Positions 7,525 through 23,095 of a stretch of 35,445 bases of DNA are shown here, piece by piece. Source of the DNA: a virus. The position numbers were made by a program, and so were the translations under genes. The notes below the pieces were generated by a model. The model was not told the DNA's origin and ran no database searches. It was given only the letters and a program-made list of their open reading frames with translations. The stretch lies in the IMG/VR virus record IMGVR_UViG_3300021964_000222, positions 1-35,445 of that record; one strand, written 5' to 3'. The number at the start of each line of letters is the position of its first letter. The stretch's first letter is position 1.

Positions 7525-8481
7525 ATGGAAAATATATCAAAAGAATTTACATATCCAGTTACAGACGATCAATACTCAATGTCAAACGAGGAAGGTAAAA
7601 CAGGTACACTAACATACAACGGTCCAGATAAAAAATATGTCGTAATAGATCGAAATACTAATAGAATGACTGGTAGCTGTATTACAGAATCAGAGTGGGA
7701 ATCAGGCTTTAATGACGACGAAGATTCTGATGTTTATGCTGTAGAAGTTAACTGCGATGAAAATACTTTGATATGTGCTATGCTGCAATCAGGCGGCAGC
7801 GGCATTAATCCTGAAACTGTTCCTGAAATTACAGAAGAAATTCCAGGATATCCATTAGCGTACACTAGAAATGACCCTATGTTACCGGATCACGTATACG
7901 AAGTAGAAGAAATTGAATATGACCCAGGTGCAGGTGTTTTTGTTAAACCATTTCCTTGGAAAAAACCAATCGATACTTGGGAAGATATGTTAAGAAGAAG
8001 AAATAATTTATTAGCTAACGCAGATAAAAATTTATCAGAAGATCTTCCAACTTCAATTTATAATAAAGTTGCAAAATATAAGCAGTGGATGAGAGACTTA
8101 CCAGAAACGTTTGGTGTTGGATGGACTGTTACTGTTGATGCTGAAGGTACAGGATATATTGTAGGAGACAGACTATTAATAACTGACCCTAGATATAAAA
8201 ATGGATCTAACGCTCCTGATATTTTAGTAACAATCACAGCAGTAAATGAAACTGGTGGCATAACAGGATTTACTAGAACAACTGCATATGCCCACGAGTA
8301 TCATCCAGATGCAGGATCATACGAAAATGTATTTTATTCACAAAATTCAGCTAATGGTGCAGGCGCAGTGTTAAGTATGTCTAAAGTAAAACTAGTGCAA
8401 CCTTGGAAAGTAAATATGTTAAGAAATCCAGTTGACAATCCTGCCCAAGAAGCACAAAATAACATTATTGATTTATTATAA
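7525..8481 (+). CDS. Putative tail fibre assembly chaperone paralogue with an inserted fibre repeat (318 aa)
   Basis: This is a paralogue of the gene at 5338: same beta-rich start, then TWEDMLRRRNNLLANADK and YKQWMRDLPETFG, matching DWDDVINGRNGALISSDGK and YRQALRDLPATYG. Both end in a WKVN segment. In the shorter copy the two parts are ~13 residues apart; here about 95 residues are inserted (roughly residues 198-292). The insert reads GTGYIVGDRLLI...NAPDILVTITAV, the same repeat that occurs five times in the 2049-residue virion protein at 13532. So a fibre repeat sits inside an assembly-chaperone-like protein. The function is inferred from the C-terminal motif; the insert may dock the protein to fibres or make it a virion part. 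Confidence 0.6.
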   Translation: MENISKEFTYPVTDDQYSMSNEEGKTGTLTYNGPDKKYVVIDRNTNRMTGSCITESEWESGFNDDEDSDVYAVEVNCDENTLICAMLQSGGSGINPETVPEITEEIPGYPLAYTRNDPMLPDHVYEVEEIEYDPGAGVFVKPFPWKKPIDTWEDMLRRRNNLLANADKNLSEDLPTSIYNKVAKYKQWMRDLPETFGVGWTVTVDAEGTGYIVGDRLLITDPRYKNGSNAPDILVTITAVNETGGITGFTRTTAYAHEYHPDAGSYENVFYSQNSANGAGAVLSMSKVKLVQPWKVNMLRNPVDNPAQEAQNNIIDLL

Positions 8482-8502: not shown

Positions 8503-8524
8503 GAAAGGCGCAACTGCGCCTTTC
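8503..8524 (+). terminator. Stem-loop, possible terminator of the adhesin operon
   Basis: A perfect 9-bp GC-rich stem (GAAAGGCGC / GCGCCTTTC) with an AACT loop, 21 bases after the stop of the gene at 7525. The T-tract after it is poor (ACTTTG), so it may terminate weakly or act as an RNA-end stabiliser. It separates the tip operon from the sugar-gene cluster. Confidence 0.55.
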
Positions 8525-8552: not shown

Positions 8553-8560
8553 CATAAATA
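8553..8560 (+). promoter_or_regulatory. T4-type late promoter CATAAATA for the surface-sugar cluster
   Basis: CATAAATA with predicted transcription start near 8566, leaving a ~26-base leader before the ATG at 8592. A TATAAT at 8569-8574 could act as a host -10 box, but the -35 position (ATGATG) is poor. I favour late transcription of the three downstream genes. Confidence 0.6.
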
Positions 8561-8591: not shown

Positions 8592-9524
8592 ATGTCTCGA
8601 AACAAAGCATTTTTTATTAACGGCGGCGCCGGCCGTGTAGTGTGTTCAATACCTGCACTAGAAAAATTTGCAGAAGAAAATCCTGATAATAATTTTATTA
8701 TTGTTTGTGAAGGTGGCACAGATTTTTACAAAGGCCATCCGCTATTACACGCAAAAGCTTATGATGTATGGCATAAGAATTTGTTTGAAGATAAGCTAAA
8801 AGATATGGAATTAATAAGTCCTGAACCGTACAGAGTGTGGGAATATTATAACCAAAAAGCTAGTTTAGCTGAAGCGTATGATATTGCAATTAATAACAAA
8901 GGTGTTAGAGATTTACCTAAGCCTAAAATTGTTTTAAGTAAACACGAAAAAATAGCTGGTGCACAGGTCATTAAAGAAGTTAAAGAAAAAACTGGCAAAG
9001 ACAAAGCTGTAGTATTCCAACCATTTGGAAGAGGAGTCTTTAATGAGAATGGGATGATTACTGATTTCAGTGGTAGAAGTTTTGAGCCAGAAAATGTTCT
9101 TAGCATTGTCAAAAAATTAAACAAAGAATACGCAGTAATTTATATGGGCGAAATTGCTTTCGAATTTCAAAAGCACGGAATTTCAGAACCAGTTGCAATT
9201 CCGCAAGGAATTGGATTAAGAGAATGGGCAGCTATAATTGCACAAGCAGATCACTTTTTAGGATGTGATAGTGTCGGTCAACACCTAGCATATGCTTTTG
9301 AAAAGAAATCTACTATTGTACTTGGAAGTACATTTAAAGAAAATGTTTCATATCCTAAAGAAAAAACATTTAAGATATTAGATATGGGCGAAGGCGCAAG
9401 AATTTACTCTCCGATTCGTATTACTGTTGATGAATATGTTGATAGAGTAAACGAAGGTGTAATGGCAATGAACGAAAAAATTGAAGATATTATAATTAAA
9501 GAGATTAAAGAAGCTACAAAATAG
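8592..9524 (+). CDS. GT9-like (heptosyltransferase-type) glycosyltransferase (310 aa)
   Basis: A GT-B type glycosyltransferase resembling the ADP-heptose:LPS heptosyltransferase family. The N-terminal half opens with INGGAGRVVCSIPALEKF, the acceptor-side G-G-x-G-D/R...P.L pattern. The C-terminal half has FQPFGRG, then GLREWAAIIAQADHFLGCDS followed by VGQHLAYAF, matching the family's D-S-x-x-x-H-L-A-A donor site. The length (310) is close to the usual 320-350. There is no membrane segment. It is the first gene of a late-promoter operon with an SGNH protein and a carbamoyltransferase, directly after the tip genes. The same phage makes ADP-heptose (19678-22630), so ADP-heptose is the likely donor. 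The acceptor may be host LPS or a phage virion protein; the sequence does not tell which. Confidence 0.75.
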   Translation: MSRNKAFFINGGAGRVVCSIPALEKFAEENPDNNFIIVCEGGTDFYKGHPLLHAKAYDVWHKNLFEDKLKDMELISPEPYRVWEYYNQKASLAEAYDIAINNKGVRDLPKPKIVLSKHEKIAGAQVIKEVKEKTGKDKAVVFQPFGRGVFNENGMITDFSGRSFEPENVLSIVKKLNKEYAVIYMGEIAFEFQKHGISEPVAIPQGIGLREWAAIIAQADHFLGCDSVGQHLAYAFEKKSTIVLGSTFKENVSYPKEKTFKILDMGEGARIYSPIRITVDEYVDRVNEGVMAMNEKIEDIIIKEIKEATK

Positions 9525-9525
9525 T

Positions 9526-10368
9526 ATGTCAAGATTGTATACTTTTGGATGTAGTTTTACATCTTATGCTTGGCCTACTTGGGCAGACTTTTTTGGATTA
9601 GAATTTGATGAATTCGAAAATTGGGGAATACCCGGAATAGGTAATGTAGCCATTGCTAACAGAGTTGCAGAATGTTGTTTAAAAAATAACATTAATGAAA
9701 ATGATACAGTTGTAGTACAATGGTCAAGCCATTTAAGGAATGATTATCATCTATTTCGTCCACCTTTAAACAGGGATACTGATTTTAATTGGAAAACTAA
9801 AGGTTCTATTTTTAGCTACACAAACAAATCGTTATATGATAAAAAATGGGTAGAAAACTTTTTTGACGAAGAATCATATATTATGTTGTCCTTAAACGCA
9901 ATGTATAGTATAATTAATTTATTAGAAAATAAAAAATGTAAATGGAGAATGACTACTATAAGTGATTTTTCTAAGTTAGGTAATGACTATATTAATTCAG
10001 AAAATTTTGGCGAGGATTCAAACCTTTCTAATTTATGGAATAAGGAAATTTTTTCTCCTTACAAAAAAATATTCAATCACAAAAATTGGTTAGAGCCTAT
10101 AGGAACATACTGCTGGAAACAGAAAGAATTATTATATAAGTGGAAAGAATGGCAAGATCCACATCCGTCACCTGGTTTATGTATTGATTGGTTATATAAT
10201 ATATTAAAGCCAAGTTTAAATTTAGACAATACAAAATTGAAGCCAGAGCAAACAAAATGGTACTATAAATGTCAAGAAATCAAAGATAATGTTGATAATT
10301 TACAAATGTATGGTGACATTTTATATAAAGAGTTAGAAAATTTTGACAAAACATATAGAGGATATTAA
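9526..10368 (+). CDS. SGNH/GDSL hydrolase-like protein (280 aa)
   Basis: Begins MSRLYTFGCSFT: a short strand followed by G8-C9-S10, the position of the nucleophile in SGNH hydrolases. D211-P-H213-P-S, close to the C terminus, fits the Asp-x-x-His or Asp-x-His catalytic pair, and VVVQWSSHLRND may hold the N/H block. Such proteins are esterases or O-acyl transferases acting on glycans. The gene starts two bases after the TAG of the glycosyltransferase and is followed after one base by the carbamoyltransferase gene, so the three are one transcript. It could remove or place acyl groups on the same sugar. It is rich in Lys/Asn/Trp, more AT-biased than the fibre genes. The family call is moderately sure, the substrate unknown. 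Confidence 0.6.
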   Translation: MSRLYTFGCSFTSYAWPTWADFFGLEFDEFENWGIPGIGNVAIANRVAECCLKNNINENDTVVVQWSSHLRNDYHLFRPPLNRDTDFNWKTKGSIFSYTNKSLYDKKWVENFFDEESYIMLSLNAMYSIINLLENKKCKWRMTTISDFSKLGNDYINSENFGEDSNLSNLWNKEIFSPYKKIFNHKNWLEPIGTYCWKQKELLYKWKEWQDPHPSPGLCIDWLYNILKPSLNLDNTKLKPEQTKWYYKCQEIKDNVDNLQMYGDILYKELENFDKTYRGY

Positions 10369-10369
10369 A

Positions 10370-12166
10370 ATGAACGATAAGCCGGTTTGGATAGCAGGTA
10401 TTGCTAGAGGACATAATGCAGGAGTATGTCTATTAAAGGATGGCAAAATAGTTTTTAGTATCGAAGAGGAAAGATTAACCCGTAGAAAATACGACGGTGG
10501 ACCTCTAGCATCAATACTAAAAATAAAAGAGTACACTGATAAACTTGATTTTCTATGTATTTCTCATACAACACCCTTACATACAGCTGGCACATTAGAT
10601 TACTCCGGAGAAGATGTTTACACAGGTCTCGCAAGAAAAATAGGCTTGATAGAAGACACTCGTTACGGCGAAGATGGTACACATCCTCAAGTTATCGATA
10701 TGGCAATGTTTCATCACAAAATGCACGCCGGCTTGGCCTTTTATAGAAGTGGATTTGAAGAAGCTGTAGCAGTAATTGTAGATGGTGCAGGTACATTTTT
10801 TCCTTTAACTATAGAAAATGATACTATGACAGTGTATGAAACTGAAAGTATATATAAATGTACATACCCTGCGGAAATTACAACCTTGCACAAAACTATG
10901 GGTGCAAGAAATATGCTTATAAATGCATATATGACAGACTTTTCAGGAGGCGAGTGGGAACCGGGTGCAAAATTTAATTTGTCTATTACTGATAAGGCAG
11001 GCATTGTAAAGGCATATGAAGCAGTAACAGAATATTGCGGATGGTCGAGTATCGAAGCAGGTAAAACTATGGGATTATTTCCATATGGTTCTAAAAACGA
11101 TGATATACCGCCGTTGTTTGAGGCAAATGATAATCCTGTTCCAACAACAAATAGAAATTTAATTTTACCTAGATACCCAAACGGCGCAGTTGTTAATCAA
11201 AATATGTACAACTACTTAAACAACAATGAATCTGAAGATGTTACATTATTACAAAACAGAAGAGATTTAGCATATGCTGTACAAACGCAAACACAGGAAG
11301 CAGTAGTCGATTTAATTAGACACGCTGTTGAATTAAGTGGTTGCAAAAATGTTGTAATTAGTGGCGGTTACGGATTAAACTGTGTTGCAAATTATTATTA
11401 CTTAGAACAGTTAAAAGATGAAGGCATTGAACTATATGTTGAACCAGTTTCAAACGATGCTGGAACCGCAATGGGTGCAGCACTAATTTGGCACCACCAT
11501 CATACTGAAGATACAACAGTTAAGCCTCAAGCTGACACTGTTTATTTAGGTCCTAAATATGATTTACACGTAAATGAAATTATTTCTATCGCAGATAAGT
11601 ACAACAGTACTGTGTCAGACGCAAATCACAATGATATTGTTGAACTAATGACAGGAAAAAATATTGTTGCCTGTTTCCAAGGACAAAGCGAAAACGGACC
11701 TAGAGCATTAGGTAATCGTAGTTTAATGTTTGATCCAACTTTTGAAGATGGCAAAGATTTTGTTAATGAAATTAAACATCGTGAGTATTTCCGTCCATTT
11801 GCAGGTAGTATACTAGAAGAAGATGTACACGAGTGGTTTGATCTACGTGGTATGAAGAGCTCTCCTACAATGATGTATGCTGTAAACTGTCAACCAGGTA
11901 TTGAAGAAAAGATTCCTGCTATTATTCACGTAGACGGAACGTGTCGCATACAAACGGTCACTAGAGAACAAAATCCTCACTACTATGATATTATTAAAAC
12001 GTTTAAAGAAAAGACAGGTGTTCCAATTATCTTTAATACTAGTTTTAATTTAGGTGGTGAACCTCTTGTTGAAACACTTGACGATGCTGTAAGAACATTG
12101 TATAATAGTAAAATTGAATACTTATATTTGCCAGAATACGGAAAATTAATTACCGTAAAAAACTGA
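10370..12166 (+). CDS. NodU/CmcH-family carbamoyltransferase (598 aa)
   Basis: The start is ATG 10370, with an AGAGGAT ribosome binding site overlapping the upstream gene's end; an upstream in-frame Met nine codons earlier would overlap that gene. The N-terminal YrdC/Kae1-like ATPase fold shows HNAGVCLLKDGKIVFSIEEE followed by RLTRRK, and H115-H116-K-M-H119, the metal-site histidines. The C-terminal carbamoyltransferase part has SGGYGLNCVAN, EPVSNDAGTAMGAAL, ENGPRALGNRSL (441-452) and FNTSFNLGGEP (555-565). Length matches the family (550-620). These enzymes use carbamoyl phosphate and ATP to carbamoylate a hydroxyl of a sugar or other small molecule. With the glycosyltransferase and SGNH genes it forms a surface-decoration set. 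Enzyme class is clear; the acceptor is not. Confidence 0.9.
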   Translation: MNDKPVWIAGIARGHNAGVCLLKDGKIVFSIEEERLTRRKYDGGPLASILKIKEYTDKLDFLCISHTTPLHTAGTLDYSGEDVYTGLARKIGLIEDTRYGEDGTHPQVIDMAMFHHKMHAGLAFYRSGFEEAVAVIVDGAGTFFPLTIENDTMTVYETESIYKCTYPAEITTLHKTMGARNMLINAYMTDFSGGEWEPGAKFNLSITDKAGIVKAYEAVTEYCGWSSIEAGKTMGLFPYGSKNDDIPPLFEANDNPVPTTNRNLILPRYPNGAVVNQNMYNYLNNNESEDVTLLQNRRDLAYAVQTQTQEAVVDLIRHAVELSGCKNVVISGGYGLNCVANYYYLEQLKDEGIELYVEPVSNDAGTAMGAALIWHHHHTEDTTVKPQADTVYLGPKYDLHVNEIISIADKYNSTVSDANHNDIVELMTGKNIVACFQGQSENGPRALGNRSLMFDPTFEDGKDFVNEIKHREYFRPFAGSILEEDVHEWFDLRGMKSSPTMMYAVNCQPGIEEKIPAIIHVDGTCRIQTVTREQNPHYYDIIKTFKEKTGVPIIFNTSFNLGGEPLVETLDDAVRTLYNSKIEYLYLPEYGKLITVKN

Positions 12167-12172
12167 TAAATA
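12165..12172 (+). promoter_or_regulatory. T4-type late promoter GATAAATA
   Basis: GATAAATA, whose first two bases are the GA of the carbamoyltransferase TGA stop (12164-12166). Predicted start near 12178, leader of about 16 bases with a CAGGGG ribosome binding site before ATG 12194. Confidence 0.7.
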
Positions 12173-12193
12173 TTTTGTCAACAGGGGCATAAT

Positions 12194-12613
12194 ATGAATA
12201 ATTTGATGAAATATCTATCACAAGGAATGAAAAACACTGTATTGTTTAGAAATAATGCAGGAACTAGTCATAAAGGTCCTTGGAAACAATTGTACGAAAA
12301 TACACTACTTGACAGATGGCACGTAGGCGATTTTGCAACAGTTGAATATACTATTAGTGCAGACTTTGATAGAGATAATAAAGAAATTATAAAAGCTCTA
12401 GTTACAGCTAGTGTTGATCGTGCCTCTGTAGTTATTTACGCAAGAAATAATACATTAAACGATATGATAGATGTTTCGGTAACTGTTAACGATAGTTATG
12501 TTGATGTTAGTGTAACACCGATTATAGACAGTGAATTATCGACTAATTTTACTGGTACAAAAGTAATATTTACAGGACAATACTTCCATACAGTTAACCC
12601 TCCTATAGTCTGA
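12194..12613 (+). CDS. Conserved phage protein of unknown role (139 aa)
   Basis: A 139-residue protein with an N-terminal basic stretch (MNNLMKYLSQGMKNTVLFRN) followed by a beta-rich body (ATVEYTISADFD, ALVTASVDRASVVIYAR, VSVTVNDSYVDVSVTPI). No catalytic motif, Cys cluster or membrane helix is visible. It has its own late promoter and its stop is built into the late promoter of the next gene, so it is expressed with virion genes. Similar small proteins accompany fibre genes in marine T4-like phages. I infer a virion or baseplate-associated protein; I do not recognise a T4 counterpart. Confidence 0.6.
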   Translation: MNNLMKYLSQGMKNTVLFRNNAGTSHKGPWKQLYENTLLDRWHVGDFATVEYTISADFDRDNKEIIKALVTASVDRASVVIYARNNTLNDMIDVSVTVNDSYVDVSVTPIIDSELSTNFTGTKVIFTGQYFHTVNPPIV

Positions 12614-12619
12614 TAAATA
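12612..12619 (+). promoter_or_regulatory. T4-type late promoter GATAAATA
   Basis: GATAAATA overlapping the TGA stop (12611-12613) of the upstream gene in the same way as the site at 12165. Predicted start near 12625; ATAGGAG is the ribosome binding site before ATG 12638. It probably drives both 12638 and the 2049-residue gene. Confidence 0.7.
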
Positions 12620-12637
12620 ACATATAGGAGTAGGTTT

Positions 12638-13528
12638 ATGGCAACAGTTAATTCGCCTTTTGAGTCAAAATACGGATTTAAAGGTCCAGGCTTTTCAGTC
12701 GACAACGAAGGTAATATTATTGCAAACAGTATTATCACCGCAATAAATCCCGGTGACGATACAGATGTTGATTTTACAGACTTTACTATTACTGAAGGTC
12801 AAAACTCTTTTTTAATTGCTGAAGCAGATCCTGTTGACAATCCCACTATTACAGTTGCAAGACAATCAACATATTCATTTTCTATAAATGTTCCAAATTT
12901 AAAATTTTTTATTGTAGTTGGAAATCAAATTGATTCCGAATTGTATAGTGTTGGATTAAGTCACAGTGACGGAACTTCTGGAGCAGATTCACAAGGTAAA
13001 ACTAGCGGATCTTTACAATTTTCAGTTCCATTAAATGCTCCTAATGTATTATATTATACAGACGAAAATAGAAATAATTTTGGTACAATTAATATAGTTG
13101 ACCCAACAGGAAGATTTGGCACATTAGATGTTAACTCTACAATTAATGCAACTTCACCTACCGTAGGTGCCTTAACAGTTGCAGGCGGCATTGCTGTAGA
13201 ACAAGACATTTTTATCGGCGGAAGCTTAAATGTAGGAGGCACAGGTATAACTAACTTGGCCTCAGGAAATAATTTAGAATTAGAAGCAGTAAATGAAATA
13301 GTTTTAAAAGTTGATGGAACTAAAATAGCTGCTGTAACATCTACCGGCTTAACTGGTAGTATAGTAGACGCTACTATAAATAATACTGTGATTGGTCAAA
13401 CTACTCCGGCTTCTGCTACTTTTAGCACAGCTAAAGTTAATACGTTACCAACAACAGATTTAGATATATCGAATAAGCAATATACAGATAGTACTGCACT
13501 GGCTCTATCAATAGCATTTGGATTATAA
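12638..13528 (+). CDS. Fibre-stem / baseplate-associated virion protein (296 aa)
   Basis: Beta-rich protein with the phage fibre-stem signature PTVGALTVAGGIAVEQDIFI followed by GGSLNVGGTGITNLASGNNL, then GQTTPASATFSTAKVNT and a C-terminal DISNKQYTDSTALALSIAFGL split after position 20. Repeating hydrophobic-glycine triplets of this sort form trimeric fibre shafts. The N-terminal ~60 residues (SPFESKYGFKGPGFSVDNEG) are a likely attachment domain. It lacks the C-terminal peptidase domain that usually follows such stems in tailspikes. The gene is separated from the 2049-residue gene by only three bases, so the two products are probably made together and may interact. Similar proteins are known in cyanophages; the exact role is unclear. 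Confidence 0.7.
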   Translation: MATVNSPFESKYGFKGPGFSVDNEGNIIANSIITAINPGDDTDVDFTDFTITEGQNSFLIAEADPVDNPTITVARQSTYSFSINVPNLKFFIVVGNQIDSELYSVGLSHSDGTSGADSQGKTSGSLQFSVPLNAPNVLYYTDENRNNFGTINIVDPTGRFGTLDVNSTINATSPTVGALTVAGGIAVEQDIFIGGSLNVGGTGITNLASGNNLELEAVNEIVLKVDGTKIAAVTSTGLTGSIVDATINNTVIGQTTPASATFSTAKVNTLPTTDLDISNKQYTDSTALALSIAFGL

Positions 13529-13531
13529 GTA

Positions 13532-16500
13532 ATGGCAAAGACACAAATAAAAAATTATGTATTTAAACCGGGCATAGGAAGATTAGATAATTTATTTCCT
13601 GATGCATATAGTTTATTAGAACGTAATAAAACGTTTATACAAAAAGAAGCTAATGCTTTTATTCAAAATAAAATTAATACAGGACAGCCTGGTTATGTTG
13701 GCTATACCTATAACGCAGCAAAATGCGAAAGAGATGTAGGATATGTTATTGATGCATATTTAGAAGATTTAAGATACGGCGGCAACGAAACCCTTAGAAA
13801 TACAATTAAATATTATTGGGATCAAGACGTTGCTCAGGTTGACGGCGACCGCACACCTGAAACAGATGTTCACGAATTTATTGGAATTCTTATAAAAGAT
13901 TATATTTTTACTAATACGTTATATTCAGCATTAAATACTGAACAAACACAAACAGTAGATATTAGCAAGACTGTACAATCATTAGCTTACACACCAACAG
14001 GCGCATCTTATAAACCAACAACTGGTGTAATGGAATTAACACTAGGTAGCCATTCAATTAATGTAGGCGACGAAATTCATATTGCTCCGAGCAGTTTAAC
14101 TTTTACTTGTGCAAGAGACGGTAATGCAACAAATCATCCATATCCTAGAAGTTCGGGTGTTCCTAATGATTACGGCAAAGACAAATATTATTATTCACCA
14201 GTTAAAGTTATTGATACAACAGCAACTACTATTACAGTAAATGTTGGAGTAAGTTCGGATACAAGTGTTCATACGTTTGTTAGTGCAACTGCTAACGCAA
14301 TAACTGCTGGAGCTCCTGCAAAGATAAACACACTTGCATTCAATACTGTTGATGTAATTGAAAACGGATTAAGTGCATTACCGGTATTATCTCCAATAGG
14401 AGTAGGAACTGTAAAAATACAAGGTAGATATAATTCAGACGAGCTGCTATTAATATCAAATTCTACAAGAAGTGAAGTTTTGTATAACTTTACTAATGTA
14501 CAAACAGGTGCAAAAGTTATTGTTACAGATGATAATTCATCTGATAGTGACTTTCCTTTTTATATACAAACAACAGATGCAGTTACACTCATTGAATTGA
14601 ACTATGATACTAGTAGTCATAGTAGCACAGATGAACTACAGGTATTTGTAGAAAGAATTGAAAACGGTAAAAGTGTTGTAACAACTAGACCATATGATTT
14701 TGGTACAGATGCAATTGAACGTAACCGTATTGCACAACCGTTATCAATGCTCGACGCTGACTTTGAATATGGTCTACAGCCTACTAAATGGGCAGCAATT
14801 GGCACACTAAGAGGTTATCCTAGTGTATACGAAGTACCAGGAACAGATACACCAGTACTTAGTGTTGTAACAGATGCATCTGCTGGGACACAAGGTGTAG
14901 GTCAATCATTAATTACAGTTACAACTGTTTCACCGCACGGATTTACAGCAGGAACTCCAATTACTATTAAAGCACTTGAAGATAGTGTTAACGGTGCAGC
15001 AAGAGCTGAAGGTTCATTTGTGATAGTTACTATTGTAGATTCAACTTCATTTACTTATTATGCAAAATCTAAAGTTGGCACTATTTCAGGAACTGTACTA
15101 TCAACTACATATACGCAATTAAGAAAAGCAGGATTTTATACAGGCGCAGATATTGGCGGATCAGTATTTTCTGTAGCTAGTCAAGGTAGCTCAGGAACAA
15201 TGACTACAGAGCTTGGAGTATTAGCAGGCAGCACAATTATACCATATGATGATGATCCACCCGAAATTGGTTCTCCTTTAGAAACAGCAGGCGGCGAAAT
15301 TCCGTTAGGCTCTCAGGTAACTGGTATTATTGATCAGTCGCAAGGCGGTGGCTTATATCTTACTCCTACTGTAGTTGGAGATGTGCCTGCAGGAACTAAT
15401 CAAGTTACAGTTAGTGATGTTACTGGTATAGTTGAAAATTTAGCTGTAGATCGAGGCGACGGATTTGCAATTTATGTAAGCAGCATTGCTGGGAGCACTC
15501 TAACATTTAGTGACAATTTTACAGAACCTGTTATAGGTAATACAACAAACTATACAAATTTAGTCGGTACTAATGATACATCAGATGGCGAAAATGCAAG
15601 ATTTGATATTTCTTTTGCTGTAGATTCTAGTTTTACATATGTACTAGATGCAATTGCTAACGACGGTGGAGAAGGTTACGAAGTAGGCGATAGAATTATT
15701 ATTCCAGGTACATCACTTGGCGGCACAACTCCAGAAAACGATGCACTTATTATAGTAACTGAAATCCTTGACAGTGCAAACTCTATTGCTGATGCTGAAA
15801 TTTCAGGAACACACTTTAACAACGACATTTACTTACCAGATCAAACTGCTGTATTTCAAGGCGGAAACGGCTCGGATGCAACATTTGATATAAGCTACGA
15901 AAACGGCGCATTCACAAGTGTAGTAGTAAACACTTCTGAAATAGGATTTGGTTATGTGCCGGGGGATGTAATTGATGTTGCAGGATTTTTACTTTCTCAA
16001 AATGCAGCACCTTCGCAGTTTTTGAGAATTGGTGTTGATACTGTAGATGCAAATGGCGGAATTACTTCTATATCATTTGCAGGACAAGCACCTGCTGCTA
16101 ACAGAACTGTGTTTAATGCAACTTATACTACAACATCTGTTTCTGGTACAAACGCAGCATTTGATGTTACAGTAAATGGATCTAATTATGAAGTAAATTT
16201 TACAAATACTGGTGTAAACTATTTGGCAACAGAAAACTTCACAGTATTGGGTACATTACTAGGAGGAACTTCTCCAGCGAACGATTGTACTATTGTAATT
16301 GACAATGTTGGTGTAAACGGTGAAATTACTGCTACAACAGTTTCGGGTGTTACCTTTAACGGCGATACTAAAATTGGTCAACCTGGCGAAAACGTTACAC
16401 CTTCAGGTGCTACATTTAATGTAAGCCAAAACGGAGCGCAGTATGTAGCGACTATTTCAGATCCAGGCGACAACTACAATGTTGGAATGGAATTATTAAT

Positions 16501-19500
16501 TCCAGGAACAGCATTTGGCGCAGCAACACCAGAAAACGATTTAACTATTACAGTAACAAGTGTAATTGATTTGCTAGGCGGATCAATTGACGGAATATCA
16601 TCATCTGGCACAGGATATGAACCTATTGGAATTTATATCGATGTATTAGGTGCAAATGATCCAAATGTAGGTAGTGATGCTACGTTTAATTTAACTAGAG
16701 ATTCGGGTGTATATGGTAATATAATTTCTACAAATGCAGGATCAGGTTATAAACGAGGAAATAGAGTTTTAATACCTGGTTTCTTACTTGGCGGCATATC
16801 GCCGTTGAATGATCTTATTATTAGAGTGTCTTCAGTTGATGGCTTAGGTGCTATAACAGGATTTACACCTGATTTTATTGAAGCATCAAGAGGTAATAAT
16901 TTTGATTTAATCAGCACAGTACAAATGTCCGAAGCAACAACTGCTAATATGAATAGATTAACAACTATTGATTTTGGATCATTGGCTACATTGCAAATTG
17001 AATTTCCAAACGCACACGGACTAGTTCCAGGTGGATCGTTTATTGTTGGCGTTGGATCAGATGACGGATCAAATAATCATAACCTAGTAGCTGGATCGTT
17101 CTTTGTATCTGATATTCCGACTGTTAATACATTACGTTATCAAGCAAGAGCAGAAGGATTTATTGATACTACTACAAGTATTGCAGGATCAGTTTACCCA
17201 CGTCCAGACAGCTTCTTTATCCATAGACCGTATGACGGTGGTGTACAGCTAGGTACAGGTGGACCGCAACACGGTGCGCAAGCAATACGTCAAAGTAAAA
17301 AGTACATTCGTTACCAATCAGGTAAAGGTATTATGTATACCACTGGTGCACTTTTTGCTCCGAGTTACGATTTACGCAGTTTAACGGCAGACGGTGTAGA
17401 AGTCGGATCACTTATTACTGTGGTTACAGATGATAATGATCACGGAGTACAAGAAGGTGGAATTATTCGATTACTTGGTGTAGAAACACCTGGATATAAT
17501 AGTGGAGCAGAAACTGCTGTTCCTCCAAAATTTGATTATGAAGTAGTTCAAGTTATAGATGAAAGAACTTTTAAAGTTAGAGCACAGCGTAGATTAGGTG
17601 CAACCGAAGCTGTACTAGGATTTGGCTCACAAATGAGTGTTGTTAGCTGGCACGGTGCAACAGTGCGCTCGGGTATCTTTGATGATCAAAACGGTATTTT
17701 CTGGGAATTCGATGGAACACAAATTTCAGTTGTACAGCGTACTGGTACTAGACAACTTGCTGGTACTATAGCAATGGATATTGACACTAACTTAATTACA
17801 GGAACAAATACACGTTTTGAAGATCAGCTAAAAGCAGGCGACAGAATTATTATTAAAGGTATGACACACGTTGTAACACACGTTAACGATCAAACTGAAT
17901 GTACTGTAACTCCTGACTTTAGAGGTGTAGTAAATATTACAGGTGCAAAGATTAACTTAGTAGTTGATAAAAAAGTTAAACAAAGTGAGTTTAACTTAGA
18001 TAGATTAGACGGTACAGGCCCAAGTGGTTACAATATCGACATTGCTAAAATGCAAATGATTGGTATTCAATACAGTTGGTATGGTGCTGGTTTCATTGAC
18101 TTTATGCTACGTGGTAGTGATGGTAACTTTGTGTTTGCACACAGAATGCGTAACTCAAACGTAAACACAGAAGCGTTTATGCGTTCAGGTAACTTGCCTG
18201 TACGTTATGAAGTTGCTAACGAAGGACCAAGCGGCAAACTTGCAGAAGCAATAGATGCAACTCAAAATTATATAGTGCTTGAAGATTCTAGTTTCTTTCC
18301 CGAATATGGTACAGTATATATAGATAATGAAATTATCGACTTTACTGGAAAAAATGACACACTAAACCGCCTAACTGGTTGTATTAGAGGTGCTACTTTT
18401 GAAAACTTCCAAGCAGGCGCAAATAGACAATATACCGCAGGAGTTGCTGCGAGTCATAGTGCTAGAACAGGTGTTGTACTAATATCACAAACTATTACTC
18501 CACTTATTAGTCACTGGGGTTCTGCGTTCCTAACAGACGGTGGTTTTGATGAAGATAGAGGTTATATTTTCTCATACACAGAACCTGGATTAGAAGTTAC
18601 TACAACTAAGCAAACAGCTTTCTTGATTAGATTGTCTCCGAGTGTTTCGAACGCACTTGTTGGAGATTTAGGCGAAAGAGAACTTTTAAATCGTGCGCAG
18701 CTATTGTTGCAAGAACTAGAAGTTACATCAGAAAGTCAATCCGGCGGTATACCTATTGAAGGTGGTATTGTTGTTGAAGGAATTCTTAATCCTAAAAACT
18801 ATCCAACTAATCCTGCAGATGTTCTTTGGCAAACACTTAGTACAGAAGCACAAGGCGGACAACCTAGTTTTGCACAGATTGCAGCAGGTGGCTCTATTAA
18901 GTGGTCAGACGGTGCTGCCGCAACAACCGCAACAGTTAATACTCAGCCAGTATTATCAGTAACTATGCAAACTAACGAATTTGGCGGCAGAAACGATGAA
19001 ATTGATTTTGACCAAAGTGTGTACAACACCAATGGTCCAGTGTTGATTGGATCTGTTGTTAGTTCTGTTAACTTGAACGGAGATACTGTTTATGATGTTG
19101 CAGATAACAGAACAGTAGAAAATGTTCAATTTAGAAGCAGAGATGGCGATTATAGAATCAAAATTTCAGATGATCCAGATGCTGGCTATCAGCAAAACAA
19201 TTTCACATTTGCCTTTGGCGGCAACTTAGTAAACAGAAACTTTGCGTATGTAAGTAAATCATCTTTTGATGCAAGTGGTGCAAGTACAGGAACAGTTGTT
19301 ACAGGCGGCACAGTTACATTCCCTGCTAACACTAGTATTTCTAACGTAACATTGCTAAATCACGGTGGCACTGAGTTTTATCGATTAACTTTTAATAACT
19401 CTTTTACTGGAACGTTAAGTGCAACAAGTGGTAACATACAATTTACTTTTGAAGAACCACCTTATGCACAACCAGGAGAGACTATTTTCTCATTCATTGC

Positions 19501-19681
19501 ACAACCCGGCGAACGTTCTACTGTAGACTTTAGTGAATTGAAAGAACTAACAAATACACCATTAGGCGGCCGAGGAACATATCCAAATGGCCCTGATGTC
19601 CTTGCTATTAACGTGTATAAAGTGTCAGGTGCTTCTAGTGAAAGTAACTTGATCCTTAAATGGGGTGAAGCACAGGCTTAA
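13532..19681 (+). CDS. Very large virion structural protein with tandem repeats (2049 aa)
   Basis: N terminus (13613-13800) carries the LLERNKTFIQKE...KCERDVGYVIDAY module shared with the giant fibre at 1. The middle (about residues 685-1120) has five divergent ~90-residue repeats, each with (G)SDATF(D/N)(I/L) then GxGYxxGDxxxIPGxxLGG followed by PxNDLxIxV. The last ~900 residues contain GGPQHGAQAIRQSKKYIRYQ, an RLDGTGPSGYNIDIAKMQMI segment and GTVYIDNEIIDFTGK, a conserved domain of marine T4-like phages. There is no membrane segment or enzyme motif. It is likely a baseplate or long fibre protein; the T4 equivalent is uncertain. Its TAA shares bases with the convergent gmhB stop, and a terminator hairpin follows inside gmhB. 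Confidence 0.8.
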   Translation: MAKTQIKNYVFKPGIGRLDNLFPDAYSLLERNKTFIQKEANAFIQNKINTGQPGYVGYTYNAAKCERDVGYVIDAYLEDLRYGGNETLRNTIKYYWDQDVAQVDGDRTPETDVHEFIGILIKDYIFTNTLYSALNTEQTQTVDISKTVQSLAYTPTGASYKPTTGVMELTLGSHSINVGDEIHIAPSSLTFTCARDGNATNHPYPRSSGVPNDYGKDKYYYSPVKVIDTTATTITVNVGVSSDTSVHTFVSATANAITAGAPAKINTLAFNTVDVIENGLSALPVLSPIGVGTVKIQGRYNSDELLLISNSTRSEVLYNFTNVQTGAKVIVTDDNSSDSDFPFYIQTTDAVTLIELNYDTSSHSSTDELQVFVERIENGKSVVTTRPYDFGTDAIERNRIAQPLSMLDADFEYGLQPTKWAAIGTLRGYPSVYEVPGTDTPVLSVVTDASAGTQGVGQSLITVTTVSPHGFTAGTPITIKALEDSVNGAARAEGSFVIVTIVDSTSFTYYAKSKVGTISGTVLSTTYTQLRKAGFYTGADIGGSVFSVASQGSSGTMTTELGVLAGSTIIPYDDDPPEIGSPLETAGGEIPLGSQVTGIIDQSQGGGLYLTPTVVGDVPAGTNQVTVSDVTGIVENLAVDRGDGFAIYVSSIAGSTLTFSDNFTEPVIGNTTNYTNLVGTNDTSDGENARFDISFAVDSSFTYVLDAIANDGGEGYEVGDRIIIPGTSLGGTTPENDALIIVTEILDSANSIADAEISGTHFNNDIYLPDQTAVFQGGNGSDATFDISYENGAFTSVVVNTSEIGFGYVPGDVIDVAGFLLSQNAAPSQFLRIGVDTVDANGGITSISFAGQAPAANRTVFNATYTTTSVSGTNAAFDVTVNGSNYEVNFTNTGVNYLATENFTVLGTLLGGTSPANDCTIVIDNVGVNGEITATTVSGVTFNGDTKIGQPGENVTPSGATFNVSQNGAQYVATISDPGDNYNVGMELLIPGTAFGAATPENDLTITVTSVIDLLGGSIDGISSSGTGYEPIGIYIDVLGANDPNVGSDATFNLTRDSGVYGNIISTNAGSGYKRGNRVLIPGFLLGGISPLNDLIIRVSSVDGLGAITGFTPDFIEASRGNNFDLISTVQMSEATTANMNRLTTIDFGSLATLQIEFPNAHGLVPGGSFIVGVGSDDGSNNHNLVAGSFFVSDIPTVNTLRYQARAEGFIDTTTSIAGSVYPRPDSFFIHRPYDGGVQLGTGGPQHGAQAIRQSKKYIRYQSGKGIMYTTGALFAPSYDLRSLTADGVEVGSLITVVTDDNDHGVQEGGIIRLLGVETPGYNSGAETAVPPKFDYEVVQVIDERTFKVRAQRRLGATEAVLGFGSQMSVVSWHGATVRSGIFDDQNGIFWEFDGTQISVVQRTGTRQLAGTIAMDIDTNLITGTNTRFEDQLKAGDRIIIKGMTHVVTHVNDQTECTVTPDFRGVVNITGAKINLVVDKKVKQSEFNLDRLDGTGPSGYNIDIAKMQMIGIQYSWYGAGFIDFMLRGSDGNFVFAHRMRNSNVNTEAFMRSGNLPVRYEVANEGPSGKLAEAIDATQNYIVLEDSSFFPEYGTVYIDNEIIDFTGKNDTLNRLTGCIRGATFENFQAGANRQYTAGVAASHSARTGVVLISQTITPLISHWGSAFLTDGGFDEDRGYIFSYTEPGLEVTTTKQTAFLIRLSPSVSNALVGDLGERELLNRAQLLLQELEVTSESQSGGIPIEGGIVVEGILNPKNYPTNPADVLWQTLSTEAQGGQPSFAQIAAGGSIKWSDGAAATTATVNTQPVLSVTMQTNEFGGRNDEIDFDQSVYNTNGPVLIGSVVSSVNLNGDTVYDVADNRTVENVQFRSRDGDYRIKISDDPDAGYQQNNFTFAFGGNLVNRNFAYVSKSSFDASGASTGTVVTGGTVTFPANTSISNVTLLNHGGTEFYRLTFNNSFTGTLSATSGNIQFTFEEPPYAQPGETIFSFIAQPGERSTVDFSELKELTNTPLGGRGTYPNGPDVLAINVYKVSGASSESNLILKWGEAQA
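15584..16890 (+). repeat. Five tandem ~90-residue protein repeats inside the 2049-aa virion gene
   Basis: Repeat starts lie at about residues 685, 777, 872, 959 and 1047. Conserved elements are a GSDATFDIS-like strand, a GYEVGDRIIIPG turn, LGG and P(E/A/L)ND(L/C)xIxV. DNA identity between copies is low by eye, so they are old duplications. Single copies also lie in the proteins at 1 and 7525. Confidence 0.7.
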
Positions 19682-20292
19682 AGTCTTTCTAAATAGTCAA
19701 CAAAAGCGGCCAAGTTATCAAACACTTTGGTCGCTTTTTTTATCTTTTGATATGTAAATCTTTTGTTAATTAGTTCTTCAGTTTCTTTACCGTAGCCTGT
19801 TCTAACTAGTATAGGTCTTGCACCTATTTTCATTGCAGCTTTTAGATCTTTAATACTGTCGCCTACATAAAATCCTTTTGAAAATTTTACGTGAGGTACT
19901 TCTTTTTCACAACGTTTGAACATTCCTATATTAGGCTTTGCATATATATCTGTTTTATGACTGCTTTCACTATAGTATAGTCCGTCTATACTACGACAAC
20001 CTGCCTTGCCAAGTTCTTCAAACATATAATTGTGTAATATATCTACATCTTCTTGTGTATACAGACCCTTTGCAATTCCGCCTTGGTTAGTTATAATAGC
20101 AATTTTATGTCCTAATCTTCTAAGTTTAACAATTGCTTCGAGGCTGCCTGTTTCAAATTCAAAGTCTTCTATTTTGTACGTGTACTCTCCACGTTCTACA
20201 TTTATAACGCCGTCTCGATCTAAACCAACTACACACTTTGGTGCTATATATCCTGATTGTTGAGATTCGTCGCCCCAGTAAATATTAACCAT
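19678..20292 (-). CDS. gmhB: D-glycero-D-manno-heptose 1,7-bisphosphate 7-phosphatase-like (204 aa)
   Basis: HAD-superfamily phosphatase of the GmhB/histidinol-phosphatase type: D25-R-D27-G-V-I-N nucleophile loop, T68-N-Q-G-G motif II, K119-P-N motif III and G144-D145-S146...D149 motif IV. It would remove the 7-phosphate from heptose 1,7-bisphosphate, between the two HldE steps. The zinc-binding Cys/His loop of bacterial GmhB is absent: the segment reads YYSESSHKTD with no Cys pair, so the metal site is lost. About 18 residues precede the HAD core. It is the last gene of the hldE-hldD-cupin-gmhB operon, overlapping the cupin gene by 8 bases with a GAGGAA ribosome binding site. Pathway context supports the assignment; a related HAD sugar phosphatase is the alternative. 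Confidence 0.8.
   Translation of the reverse strand: MVNIYWGDESQQSGYIAPKCVVGLDRDGVINVERGEYTYKIEDFEFETGSLEAIVKLRRLGHKIAIITNQGGIAKGLYTQEDVDILHNYMFEELGKAGCRSIDGLYYSESSHKTDIYAKPNIGMFKRCEKEVPHVKFSKGFYVGDSIKDLKAAMKIGARPILVRTGYGKETEELINKRFTYQKIKKATKVFDNLAAFVDYLERL
19702..19741 (+). terminator. Intrinsic terminator lying inside the 3' end of gmhB
   Basis: A 12-bp stem (19702-19713 with 19727-19738, one G-T wobble), a 13-base loop, and a T run at 19735-19741: a classic rho-independent terminator for the plus-strand 2049-residue gene. It is entirely within gmhB coding sequence on the other strand. Read from the minus strand it is followed by TTTTG, so it may also act on the heptose operon transcript. 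Confidence 0.75.
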
Positions 20293-20686
20293 TCGATTCC
20301 TCTTGTTCTAGTGCTTGTTGTGCTTTCTGGCTATCGCCCGGAGCAACACGATAATTATCTTCAACACTATCGGCTGTACTTACTTCTGTAATACTACTAC
20401 TGTCTACTAGCGCAATTAATTGATGAGGTTGTAGTGGAGGATTATGCCAAGTATCACCTTCGGATAAATCTTTTTCGTGTAGTCTAGCATTAGTAGTATC
20501 AATCCAACGAACTCTAAATTTACCAGAATTGACAAACCAACTTTCGTCTTTTTCTCTATGAAAATGCATACTAAACATATTGCCTGCTTTTTCAAATACC
20601 ATAATTTTACCACAGTATTTGTCATTGGTAGCCCAAATTAATTCGTAACCCCAGCCTTTTTTAACAAATCCTTCAAGACGCTGCAT
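20285..20686 (-). CDS. Cupin-fold protein, sugar-isomerase/epimerase-like (133 aa)
   Basis: Single-domain cupin: GKIMVFEKAGNMFSMHFHRE holds H41-x-H43, E48 follows, and PPLQPHQLIA supplies H88, a normal four-ligand metal site. The opening KKGWGYELIWATNDKYCGKI and the EVSTAD...DNYRV end resemble mannose-6-phosphate isomerase type II cupins and related sugar-phosphate cupins. The C-terminal ~25 residues are Gln/Glu-rich and look unstructured. It lies between hldD and gmhB, overlapping both (14 and 8 bases). No gmhA is visible in the window, so this protein could supply an isomerase step or act on another phosphosugar; that is inference. A non-catalytic sugar-binding cupin is equally possible. 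Confidence 0.7.
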   Translation of the reverse strand: MQRLEGFVKKGWGYELIWATNDKYCGKIMVFEKAGNMFSMHFHREKDESWFVNSGKFRVRWIDTTNARLHEKDLSEGDTWHNPPLQPHQLIALVDSSSITEVSTADSVEDNYRVAPGDSQKAQQALEQEESNG

Positions 20687-21494
20687 TTATATATTCCTCT
20701 ATGTTAGTCCATTGCATATCTACTACACTATTTAAATTAGTTAAATCTGCACAGGTATACTTTTGATATTGTGATTTGATATTCTCTGGCATTGGTATTA
20801 GGTTAATTTTAGCATCGTACTTATTAGCAATAGCGTTAGCAACAGTAGAAAAACTTACACTGCGTCCGGTGCCTACATTAAATATACCCGATTGGTCGAC
20901 ACCAAACATTTTTTCGTGCAACTTACAAATATCATCTACACAAACAAAATCTCGTCTATATTTTTCACTATCTTCAAATAAATTAATATAGCCATTTTCT
21001 TTTGCTTGATGTGTAAATTTAGTATAAGGGCTTGCCTGATCGCCTTTATGTTCTTCGCCTGCGCCGTACACATTAAAGTATCTAAAGCCTTGAATTTTAA
21101 TTTGAAATTCGTCTATGTATTGATTAATAAATCTATCAAACAAATACTTGCTCCAAGCATACGGGCTTTGCGGAAGCAATGGCCCATTTTCTGTAAAATG
21201 TTCAGTAGGTCCGTAAACACTTGCACTAGATGCATATTGAAAGTTAGTGCCAAAGTTTTCGCATATTTGTATAAGTCTTACACTAAACTCAAAGTTCTGT
21301 TCTAGTATCTGATTTACGTCTGTGTATGTTGTGCTACTAATAGCACCTAAATGTATACACCAATCATAGTCTTCAGTACTAGGAAGTATACCTGGTTGCC
21401 ATTCCCATCCTTCAACTTCGTGACCTTGTTGCTGTAAATAGCTTGCAATATTCTTGCCAATAAATCCTTGGTGTCCTGTAACTAAAATTCTCAT
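20673..21494 (-). CDS. hldD: ADP-L-glycero-D-manno-heptose 6-epimerase (273 aa)
   Basis: Extended short-chain dehydrogenase: G7-H-Q-G10-F-I-G13 NAD(P)-binding loop, YASSASVYG with the catalytic Ser/Thr region, and Y112-A-W-S-K116. HldD-specific segments are present: GFRYFNVYGAGEEHKGDQAS, then LFEDSEKYRRDFVCVDDI and SGIFNVGTGRSVSFSTVA. It converts ADP-D-glycero- to ADP-L-glycero-D-manno-heptose, the last step of the pathway. Length is slightly below the bacterial norm (~310). The ATG overlaps the hldE stop by four bases, and a GAGG ribosome binding site lies in the end of hldE, so the two are translationally coupled. Confidence 0.9.
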   Translation of the reverse strand: MRILVTGHQGFIGKNIASYLQQQGHEVEGWEWQPGILPSTEDYDWCIHLGAISSTTYTDVNQILEQNFEFSVRLIQICENFGTNFQYASSASVYGPTEHFTENGPLLPQSPYAWSKYLFDRFINQYIDEFQIKIQGFRYFNVYGAGEEHKGDQASPYTKFTHQAKENGYINLFEDSEKYRRDFVCVDDICKLHEKMFGVDQSGIFNVGTGRSVSFSTVANAIANKYDAKINLIPMPENIKSQYQKYTCADLTNLNSVVDMQWTNIEEYINAAS

Positions 21495-22630
21495 TTGCTT
21501 GCCTCTATTATGCTAGTTGTGGAATAACCATCTACAGTTGATACTATGTGTACATCTGCTAAATCATTACCTACAACTTCTTCTATTTTATAATCGCCAC
21601 CTTTTACAATTAGATGCGGTTTTAATTTTTTAATTAATTCGTATGGAGTATCTTCATCAAATACAACTACTTGATCTACCCACGGTAATATTTCTAATTG
21701 ACTAATGCGCTTTATCTGATTGTTGATTGGGCGTGTTTCGCCTTTGAGACGTTTGACACTTGCATCACTGTTAATACCTACAATTAGTTTCTCACCGAGT
21801 GTTTTTGCTTCTGCTAAGAGCTCAAAATGACCCTTGTGCAGTATATCAAACACTCCGTTAGTAAACACTATACGATCTTCTAAGTCGCTTACAGCAAGCG
21901 TATATGTGCCTAGATGTGTAACTGCTTTGGTAGATCCTTTAACAGCAAGTTCGATACAATGTTTATAATCATAACCTTTAGTAAGTCCATAAACAAAACT
22001 TGCTAGAAAGCAATCGCCTGCACCAGTAACATCGTTTACTTCTACAACATCAACTGGTATGTCATACACTACGTTGTCTATGCTTGCAACAACATTTTTA
22101 CCAGCCCGTGTAGTAATAATATTACCTTGCCAAAGATCAAAGTCTAATTCTGTAAATTCTTTTTCGTTAGGTTTTACAAGCCAGGCACCTTTGTAATGTT
22201 CTGCTGATTTCTTTGGATCTACAATAACACAACAGCCTGCTTTGTTTGCTAATTGTATAATTTGTTCACTAAACTCCAATACACCTTTATTATAATCACT
22301 TAGTATTACATAGTCGTATTTGTTAAATGGAAATTCTTGTAGTTCTTCTAAAACGTCATAACCGTCTGCAATGTAATCTTTGTCAATGCGTGTGACATAA
22401 TGTCCGTCACACATAACTCGTGTTTTTATACTTGTAGGCTGATCAGGTTCATATAGACTAACATCTACACCTAAACTTTTTAAATTTTCGTAAACAAGTC
22501 CTGCACCGCCTACAGTTTCTACAATACGTTCTTGTGTAACAACTGGTACGGGTGCCTCAGGACTCAAACGTGTGCTTGCGCCGTAAATATATCTGTCGAT
22601 GATTATATCGCCAATAACTAAGACTTTCAT
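21491..22630 (-). CDS. hldE: Bifunctional heptose-7-phosphate kinase / heptose-1-phosphate adenylyltransferase, compact form (379 aa)
   Basis: Two fused domains. Residues 1-~245: PfkB-type kinase with G7-D8...D12, R21-L-S-P-E-A-P-V-P-V, GGAG (41-44) and D200-V-T-G-A-G-D206 with the catalytic Asp. Residues ~250-379: nucleotidyltransferase with VFTNGVFDILHKGH (H265-x-x-H268), INSDASVKRLKGETRP and DGYSTTSI near the end. It phosphorylates heptose 7-phosphate at C1 and later transfers AMP to heptose 1-phosphate. Bacterial HldE is about 475 residues; here the kinase half is about 75-100 residues shorter, but the key residues remain. A perfect sigma-70 promoter sits so close that the predicted first base is the A of ATG 22630, with no Shine-Dalgarno upstream. 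Confidence 0.92.
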   Translation of the reverse strand: MKVLVIGDIIIDRYIYGASTRLSPEAPVPVVTQERIVETVGGAGLVYENLKSLGVDVSLYEPDQPTSIKTRVMCDGHYVTRIDKDYIADGYDVLEELQEFPFNKYDYVILSDYNKGVLEFSEQIIQLANKAGCCVIVDPKKSAEHYKGAWLVKPNEKEFTELDFDLWQGNIITTRAGKNVVASIDNVVYDIPVDVVEVNDVTGAGDCFLASFVYGLTKGYDYKHCIELAVKGSTKAVTHLGTYTLAVSDLEDRIVFTNGVFDILHKGHFELLAEAKTLGEKLIVGINSDASVKRLKGETRPINNQIKRISQLEILPWVDQVVVFDEDTPYELIKKLKPHLIVKGGDYKIEEVVGNDLADVHIVSTVDGYSTTSIIEASK

Positions 22631-22636
22631 AATTCT

Positions 22637-22665
22637 ATTATACTTTATTTTAGGTTAAGTGTCAA
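22637..22665 (-). promoter_or_regulatory. Perfect-consensus sigma-70 promoter of the heptose operon
   Basis: On the minus strand: TTGACA at 22665-22660, a 17-base spacer, TATAAT at 22642-22637. Both hexamers and the spacing are the exact bacterial consensus. The -35 box lies just before and against the NUDIX stop. The predicted start, seven bases after the -10 box, is 22630, the A of the hldE start codon. The host polymerase should read this operon without phage factors, so early expression is likely. Confidence 0.85.
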
Positions 22666-23095
22666 GTAAATTAATAGTTTGAAACACAGTTTCTAACTTA
22701 GTTAAATTAATTTTGCTTTGAAGAGTATTACGTAATCCGTGATGCAAGGGTTTTGGCCACTTAGTAAAACTGCACCAAGCATAGCCATCGTGTTCGTTGT
22801 TAAGTTTAGGAATAAATTCTTGCTCTATTACACACAGATAGGTATGGAAATAAAATTTACTATCAGGAGAAATAAAACTTTCTAAAGGTAATGTTTTTTT
22901 AATTTCTGGAAGTTGTCCAATTTCTTCTTGGATTTCTCTTTTAAGTCCTTCCCACGGAGTTTCAGCACCTTCATTAGTGCCACCAACTAGTCCCCACATA
23001 TTAGATCTTTTACCGTTTGCTCTGTGCAAAAATAAAAATCTATTAGTGTCTAAAGTATAAAAGAGAGCTCCACTACATACTATTTTGTCATTCAT
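22655..23095 (-). CDS. NUDIX hydrolase (146 aa)
   Basis: Complete Nudix box: G39-x5-E45-x7-R53-E54-I55-Q56-E57-E58-I59-G60, preceded by NMWGLVGG as usual. The fold of about 146 residues is typical of small Nudix enzymes, which split nucleoside diphosphates linked to another group (ADP-sugars, NAD, dNTPs, RNA caps). It lies eight bases after gp15 on the same strand, so it is probably read with the gp14-gp15 late transcript, while the heptose promoter overlaps its 3' end. An ADP-sugar hydrolase role would fit the neighbouring operon; a nucleotide-pool or RNA-end role is the alternative. Substrate cannot be told. Confidence 0.85.
   Translation of the reverse strand: MNDKIVCSGALFYTLDTNRFLFLHRANGKRSNMWGLVGGTNEGAETPWEGLKREIQEEIGQLPEIKKTLPLESFISPDSKFYFHTYLCVIEQEFIPKLNNEHDGYAWCSFTKWPKPLHHGLRNTLQSKINLTKLETVFQTINLLDT

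Follow-up and report, generated by a model that had tools for sequence, protein, structure and literature searches.

A viral ADP-heptose cassette and a GT9-fold transferase that may glycosylate cysteine-rich phage tail tips

What use does a phage have for lipopolysaccharide (LPS) genes? The question has been asked of cyanophages since their early genomes, and one paper asks whether such genes are functional or 'stuffer DNA' (PMC3037559). It is raised again by virus record IMGVR_UViG_3300021964_000222, of which 35,445 bases (hereafter the window) were analyzed, with attention centered on positions 8592–22630. This part carries genes for ADP-heptose synthesis on the minus strand and, on the plus strand, a glycosyltransferase (GT) gene just downstream of three tail-tip adhesin genes. 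On balance we favor an interpretation, drawn from gene content and predicted structure, in which the phage would heptosylate its tail adhesins with its own enzymes, probably on cysteine and perhaps with subsequent carbamoylation.

The GT (310 aa; 8592–9524, plus strand; phrog_8954) begins directly at a Rossmann strand and contains only three cysteines (C18, C39, C225). It scores 15 bits against the Pfam GT9 family (cut-off 22), with higher scores for two relatives, one in contig L422 (27.1 bits, above the cut-off) and one in cyanophage S-CAM1 (22.0). Its sequence profile found no relative in the PDB, and relatives came from fold searches only. The AlphaFold model reached a predicted local distance difference test score (pLDDT) of 92, and Foldseek placed 3tov, 2gt1, and 1psw at the top (E 1e-10 to 4e-8). 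The leading solved folds are a GT9 protein, WaaF, WaaC (also in complex with ADP-2F-heptose), and ADP-heptose-bound TibC. A first-pass annotation of this DNA, made from sequence alone, had placed a GT9-type enzyme in a second, late operon just downstream of three tips and suggested structure prediction with ADP-heptose as a check; these fold matches agree with the GT9 assignment.

Residues D226, S227, G229, H231, and R162 are invariant in 43 aligned sequences, and D226-S-x-G-x-H231 together with R162 corresponds to the WaaC donor site. In the alignment, Arg15 of the GT takes the place of the catalytic Asp13 in the G-D-V/M motif of WaaC, and arginine occupies this position in 43 of 43 aligned relatives. 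Phage GTs, including those of N4-like phages, read G-R where WaaC, WaaF, and 3tov read G-D. Assignment of the GT to the bacterial autotransporter heptosyltransferases (BAHT) was rejected, as it has neither the four-Cys iron finger nor the N-terminal beta-barrel of that group. The autotransporter precedent raised in the first-pass annotation holds for the TibC fold, but not for these two elements nor for the GT9 base, an Asp that is here an invariant Arg.

The composition of the neighboring tips suggests what this enzyme acts upon. Three Gly/Cys-rich adhesins are encoded upstream on the plus strand and are the proposed acceptors: tip 1 (4574–5323; 249 aa, 21 Cys; weak PF21722 match at E=6e-4, phrog_4205 E=1e-20), tip 2 (5990–6742; 250 aa, 22 Cys; PF21722 E=1e-6, phrog_4205 E=1e-26), and tip 3 (6754–7512; 252 aa, 30 Cys; phrog_4205 E=5e-11). 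Their cysteine content of 8–12% had gone unremarked at first pass. Tips adjoining a GT contain 6.1–14.6% Cys (n=318 proteins), against at most 3% in all other proteins of the window. Among 81 further GT loci, a Cys-rich open reading frame (ORF) lies within 10 kb in 75 and within 3 kb in 73, and the six loci without one are contigs that end at or just upstream of the GT. Nearly all Cys-rich ORFs in GT loci are tips. Loci without a GT have just 6 Cys-rich ORFs among 1405; two of these, both from contig L111, were inspected and resemble radical-SAM-type (CxxxCxxC-like) proteins, not tail proteins.

The enrichment recurs in fibers that are unrelated in sequence, namely Gly_rich_2 tips, PF09327 tail tips of Vibrio N4-like phages, gp49 of HJ05, and a YadA-like repeat head in L422, where Cys occurs at variable loop positions (the repeat type was assigned by eye, a Pfam match being absent). 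Over the first 350 residues, Vibrio tail homologs from GT-less phages contain 3 Cys where the GT-associated proteins contain 19, with Cys columns mostly replaced by E/Q/D/S/T/N. A tblastn search with the tip protein returned no matches, apparently through low-complexity masking, and a Pfam Gly_rich_2 search served as the control in its place. Gly_rich_2 domains contain 0–0.7% Cys in GT-less Bellamy; copies far from the GT contain 0.4% in P-SSM2 and 0.1% in S-CAM1, compared with 8.3–11.5% next to the GT. Cysteine counts are odd in 48 of 80 tips. Because Cys richness tracks the GT across unrelated fibers while the controls are Cys-poor, there is strong evidence, at the level of sequence comparison, for a joint function of the GT and the tail cysteines. 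S-glycosylation would be the simplest mechanism for this association.

Other cysteine-rich arrangements were noted in passing. In L111 (13405–18666) two Cys-rich radical-SAM-like proteins lie between a cupin and a carbamoyltransferase on a phage contig, one of which, judged by eye, seems to be joined to an ATP-pyrophosphatase/QueC-like domain. At L450:3136-4491, 5.5 kb from a GT relative, there is an RCC1-like repeat protein with recurrent Cys (..DWC..), possibly another type of acceptor.

Gene neighborhood also links the GT to tails. Tip or chaperone genes adjoin it in nearly all of 122 GT loci, and in 120 of them a co-directional carbamoyltransferase gene, absent from the first-pass annotation, lies no more than 2.5 kb away. 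Across many contigs the genes run tips, chaperone, GT, (SGNH), carbamoyltransferase, and they remain clustered where the GT-SGNH-carbamoyltransferase block is inverted. In the window the carbamoyltransferase (10343–12166, plus strand, ATG start probably at 10373; PF16861 E=5e-58, PF02543; PDB 7xb6, TobZ) has both Carbam_trans_N and Carbam_trans_C domains, and is thus an O-carbamoyltransferase of NodU/TobZ type. GT relatives adjoin tail genes in jumbo phages, in cyanophages, and in N4-like phages of Vibrio and Aeromonas, where the GT sits between or beside them. N4-like GT queries yielded almost no matches in IMG/VR. In cyanophages S-CAM1, P-SSM2, and S-SSM7, the tips, GT, carbamoyltransferase, HldE, HAD phosphatase, cupin, and HldD form a single block.

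An uncharacterized protein with GDSL/SGNH-like motifs recognized by eye (GCSFT ... DPHPS) and no Pfam match is encoded at 9526–10368 (plus strand), with a similar gene in 83 of the 122 loci. In jumbo-type loci this gene usually separates the GT from the carbamoyltransferase, and its product could acylate or deacylate the sugar.

The sugar donor would be supplied by the minus-strand operon, which runs gp14-like, gp15-like, NUDIX, HldE, HldD, cupin, and GmhB-like HAD; the last four had been predicted at first pass to share one operon and were all recovered at or near where it had placed them. HldE (21491–22630), a compact bifunctional heptose-7-P kinase/heptose-1-P adenylyltransferase, contains both the PfkB heptose kinase and the cytidylyltransferase-type adenylyltransferase domains, with GAGD and HxGH motifs, and scores 297 bits against an NCBIfam equivalog cut-off of 521. 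Its best PDB matches are 5x9q and the heptose-7-P kinase 4e84, and its two domains are nearest there to heptose-7-P kinase and to a heptose-type cytidylyltransferase. HldD (20673–21494; TIGR02197, 233 bits), the ADP-L-glycero-D-manno-heptose 6-epimerase, best matches E. coli ADP-heptose epimerase 1eq2 (E=1e-45) and retains the S/Y-x3-K and HKG residues. The HAD protein (19678–20292) is a DxD phosphatase whose best PDB matches, 4pnh followed by 2gmw, are heptose bisphosphate phosphatases; it scores under the curated NCBIfam cut-offs and the zinc-loop cysteines are absent. As all three enzymes are nearest to those of the heptose pathway, the predicted product is ADP-L-glycero-D-manno-heptose.

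A NUDIX hydrolase (22655–23095, minus strand; PF00293 E=4e-16) lies in the same operon directly upstream of hldE, as it does consistently in jumbo-type loci, where a role on ADP-sugars is possible. Many jumbo records also contain a second, shorter adenylyl/cytidylyltransferase gene (a frame of ~260 aa, e.g., G001:C1:21695-22030) 20–30 kb from HldE; a second, distant cupin relative is frequently present too.

Whether a GT-bearing phage carries the donor pathway appears to follow its host. HldE was absent from the GT-bearing Vibrio and Aeromonas phages checked (K479, D505, SBP1, and HJ05). Vibrio and Aeromonas hosts make ADP-heptose for their own LPS. The GT-bearing cyanophages S-CAM1, S-CAM3, Sf-FS3, S-SSM6a, S-SSM7, P-SSM5, and P-SSM2 all carry HldE as well, and the LPS of two marine Synechococcus strains is without heptose (PMC4515613). 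Phages of ADP-heptose-making hosts would thus keep the GT only, and those of hosts with heptose-free LPS would bring the whole cassette.

We propose that HldE, the GmhB-like phosphatase, and HldD, as judged by homology, make ADP-L-glycero-D-manno-heptose during late infection, and that the GT9-fold enzyme would move heptose from this donor onto the three tip adhesins encoded just upstream. The acceptors would most likely be the thiols of the 21–30 cysteines in each tip, a choice suggested by comparative genomics and by the Asp-to-Arg change at the catalytic-base position: Arg15 could hold a thiolate acceptor, whereas an alcohol acceptor would need a base. The NodU-type carbamoyltransferase, which shares the GT operon, would then probably O-carbamoylate the heptose, by analogy with WapO acting on Pseudomonas core heptose. 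The outcome would be tips with sugar-capped, outward-facing cysteines that may serve in receptor binding, in protection from disulfide cross-linking, or in shielding. We are confident that tail proteins are the target of the GT, consider heptose the probable sugar, and regard cysteine as a likely acceptor, with slightly more reserve. The first-pass annotation had seen a precedent for protein heptosylation; the comparative evidence favors cysteine over serine as acceptor. More tentatively, and somewhat short of favoring it outright, we suggest a general system in which a GT9-fold phage family with Arg for Asp S-heptosylates tail cysteines, often with carbamoylation, unrelated fibers have evolved dozens of surface acceptor cysteines, and, where the host lacks ADP-heptose, the phage makes the donor by a pathway with a cupin in place of GmhA.

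Several observations weigh against cysteine heptosylation. The GT resembles GT9 proteins weakly in sequence, and the Asp-to-Arg alignment depends on a local motif plus an HHalign match of low probability (19.5%, E=0.0012). Many loci share descent, so that the independent count is four or five fiber types and not hundreds of loci. Five large records (L204, L205, L208, L209, and L228) contain GT and carbamoyltransferase with HldE absent, and the donor there may be host-made or another sugar. About 46% of tip cysteines occupy strongly conserved columns, which disulfides or metal sites could also explain. This last point leads to an alternative in which the adhesins are heptosylated on Ser/Thr and the cysteines form disulfides or metal sites that stabilize exposed tips. 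TibC has the same fold and uses ADP-heptose (PMC4358343), and the adhesins contain 10–20% Ser+Thr. However, Cys richness follows the GT across unrelated fibers and disappears from GT-less homologs at positions that are mostly polar and presumably exposed; Arg stands in place of the base that an alcohol acceptor would require, and odd Cys numbers are common in tips. We consider Ser/Thr heptosylation unlikely.

It is quite improbable, in our judgment, that the GT9-like protein has lost its transferase function, or draws on a different donor, and acts on Cys-rich tips as chaperone or lectin, the ADP-heptose cassette having some other purpose. The loss of Asp13 and the lack of HldE in some GT-bearing phages would fit such a role, but the invariant donor-site residues speak against it, as does the single cyanophage block that unites GT, carbamoyltransferase, and HldE cassette. 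Remodeling of host LPS, by addition of core heptose or by carbamoylation, to block competing phages or to restore a receptor was the other explanation entertained at first pass, which had only slightly preferred self-heptosylation of the tips. The usual task of ADP-heptose and of GT9 enzymes is to build the LPS core, the cyanophage genes had been labeled LPS genes with no known use (PMC3037559), and WapO-type carbamoylation modifies LPS (PMC8005017). Yet tail genes accompany the GT in three phage groups, GT-bearing cyanophages carry the whole cassette even though marine Synechococcus LPS is heptose-free (PMC4515613), the WaaC/WaaF base is missing from the GT, and Cys-rich tail neighbors are left unexplained. 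Because of the tail linkage, the heptose-free LPS, and the Cys pattern, we hold LPS remodeling to be very improbable, and self-heptosylation of the tips is now much better supported than it.

Heptosylation of the tips would require heptose 7-phosphate, and the first-pass annotation had found the window to be without GmhA, the isomerase that makes it. The absence extends beyond the window: GmhA (SIS_2 domain) was found in 0 of 31 related large viral records, including complete P-SSM2, S-CAM1, S-SSM7, and S-T4, and in 0 of 274 loci, and a SIS_2 match was likewise absent from the 335-kb phage-like contig behind L275. Cyanophage phrog_1238, named 'phosphoheptose isomerase', was rejected as the missing GmhA on the basis of its DIDGTI motif, weak HAD matches, and lack of a SIS match; the label (L002:15916-16239, L003:16027-16371) appears to be wrong and the protein to be of HAD type. 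The contigs L275 (335 kb) and L276 (153 kb), binned as Candidatus Neomarinimicrobiota, carry the cassette and tail genes and look like misbinned jumbo phage.

A candidate substitute is the metal-type cupin (20285–20686, minus strand) with an HxHx4E...H motif. Among the 31 records it occurs in the 23 that have HldE and in no others; records with GT but no HldE lack it, so that it tracks the sugar pathway. The PHROG name 'cysteine dioxygenase', considered in view of the Cys-rich tips, was rejected since the cupin follows HldE and not the GT or tips. As a non-homologous replacement of GmhA it would convert sedoheptulose-7-phosphate to D-glycero-D-manno-heptose-7-phosphate and complete the pathway. 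D-lyxose/D-mannose isomerases are among its PDB matches by profile and by fold, but oxalate decarboxylases, quercetinases, and other cupins match the fold equally well. Of the cellular genomes that the cupin profile reached, 24 were searched; each of these matches an HldE-type adenylyltransferase, and several are without GmhA. Among 127 genomes of one class around G040, tallied by hand, GmhA occurs in 4 of 35 cupin-high, HldE-bearing genomes versus 51 of 65 others. The bacterial pattern is only suggestive because it comes essentially from one clade with mixed gene context, the cupin often standing beside a GDP-mannose-dehydratase-type short-chain dehydrogenase/reductase in polysaccharide clusters and not only beside HldE. 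Heptose-7-P could also come from the host without any cupin isomerase. We regard the isomerase role as possible but somewhat doubtful.

On the plus strand the order is a fiber gene, the three tips alternating with chaperone-like genes, a hairpin, and then GT, SGNH-like, and carbamoyltransferase genes. The fiber protein (76–3873; 1265 aa) matches phrog_9851 tail fiber (E=4e-109), and the two tail-fiber assembly chaperone-like genes lie at 5338–5985 (PF16778 Phage_tail_APC; phrog_9740/4912) and 7525–8481 (PF16778 below cut-off; phrog_9740 E=2e-29). A terminator-like hairpin, GAAAGGCGC-AACT-GCGCCTTTC, with a 9-bp stem free of mismatches by eye, separates tips from the GT unit at 8503–8524 (plus strand). 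The late promoter cited in the first-pass annotation is represented after this hairpin by a weak T4-late-type candidate, CATAAATA (8553–8560, plus strand), but it is one mismatch from TATAAATA, and motifs of this type occur in the window at chance density (112 vs 109 expected). The tail sheath (27497–30817; 1106 aa, phrog_10581), which is unusually long, has matches in the jumbo myoviruses PA5oct, Atu_ph07, and Vibrio 2.275.O.

If cysteine heptosylation is correct, the cyanophage 'LPS genes' would provide the sugar donor with which the phage coats its own tail tips, and we know of no virus in which ADP-heptose is put to that use. With cysteine as acceptor, no earlier phage S-glycosylation system and no earlier S-heptosylation would be known to us, and the enzyme would be a GT9 whose catalysis has changed. 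Abundant marine phages would also have host-recognition proteins with a chemistry that is invisible to sequence-based prediction of host range. The cupin, for its part, could add a second phosphoheptose isomerase, not homologous to GmhA.

The proposed system resembles several known ones in part. WaaC and WaaF share with the phage GT the GT9 fold, the D-S/T-x-G-x-H donor motif, and linkage to ADP-heptose genes, but the GT replaces the Asp13 base by Arg, is linked to tail and not LPS genes, and is only 10–14% identical over the fold alignment. Actinobacteriophages use phage GTs to modify their own virion proteins, with GTs and sugars that differ from those described here; we know of no Cys-rich acceptors or dedicated donor pathway in that glycosylation. 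The glycocin S-glycosyltransferases SunS and ThuS belong to a different enzyme family from the phage GT. They place sugar on Cys thiols, as proposed for the phage, but their S-linked glucose or similar hexoses are on single-site peptides, compared with 20–30 cysteines per phage adhesin (PMC6405829). Pseudomonas WaaC/WaaF and WapO, the precedent for a carbamoylated core heptose (PMC8005017), likewise pair a GT9-type heptosyltransferase with a carbamoyltransferase, although the acceptor we propose is a protein and not the lipid A core. The TibC/AAH autotransporter heptosyltransferases (PMC4358343) have the GT-B fold, ADP-heptose donor, and adhesin acceptor that we propose for the phage; the phage GT departs from them in its lack of iron-finger cysteines and N-terminal beta-barrel, its Arg at the GT9-like base position, its putative tail-tip acceptors, and a cassette that adds donor synthesis and a carbamoyltransferase. 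Further counterparts are the cyanophage 'LPS gene' clusters T4-GC 304, 305, 307, and 308 (PMC3037559), which are the same genes, tied here to the GT (GC302), the carbamoyltransferase (GC303), and Cys-rich tips.

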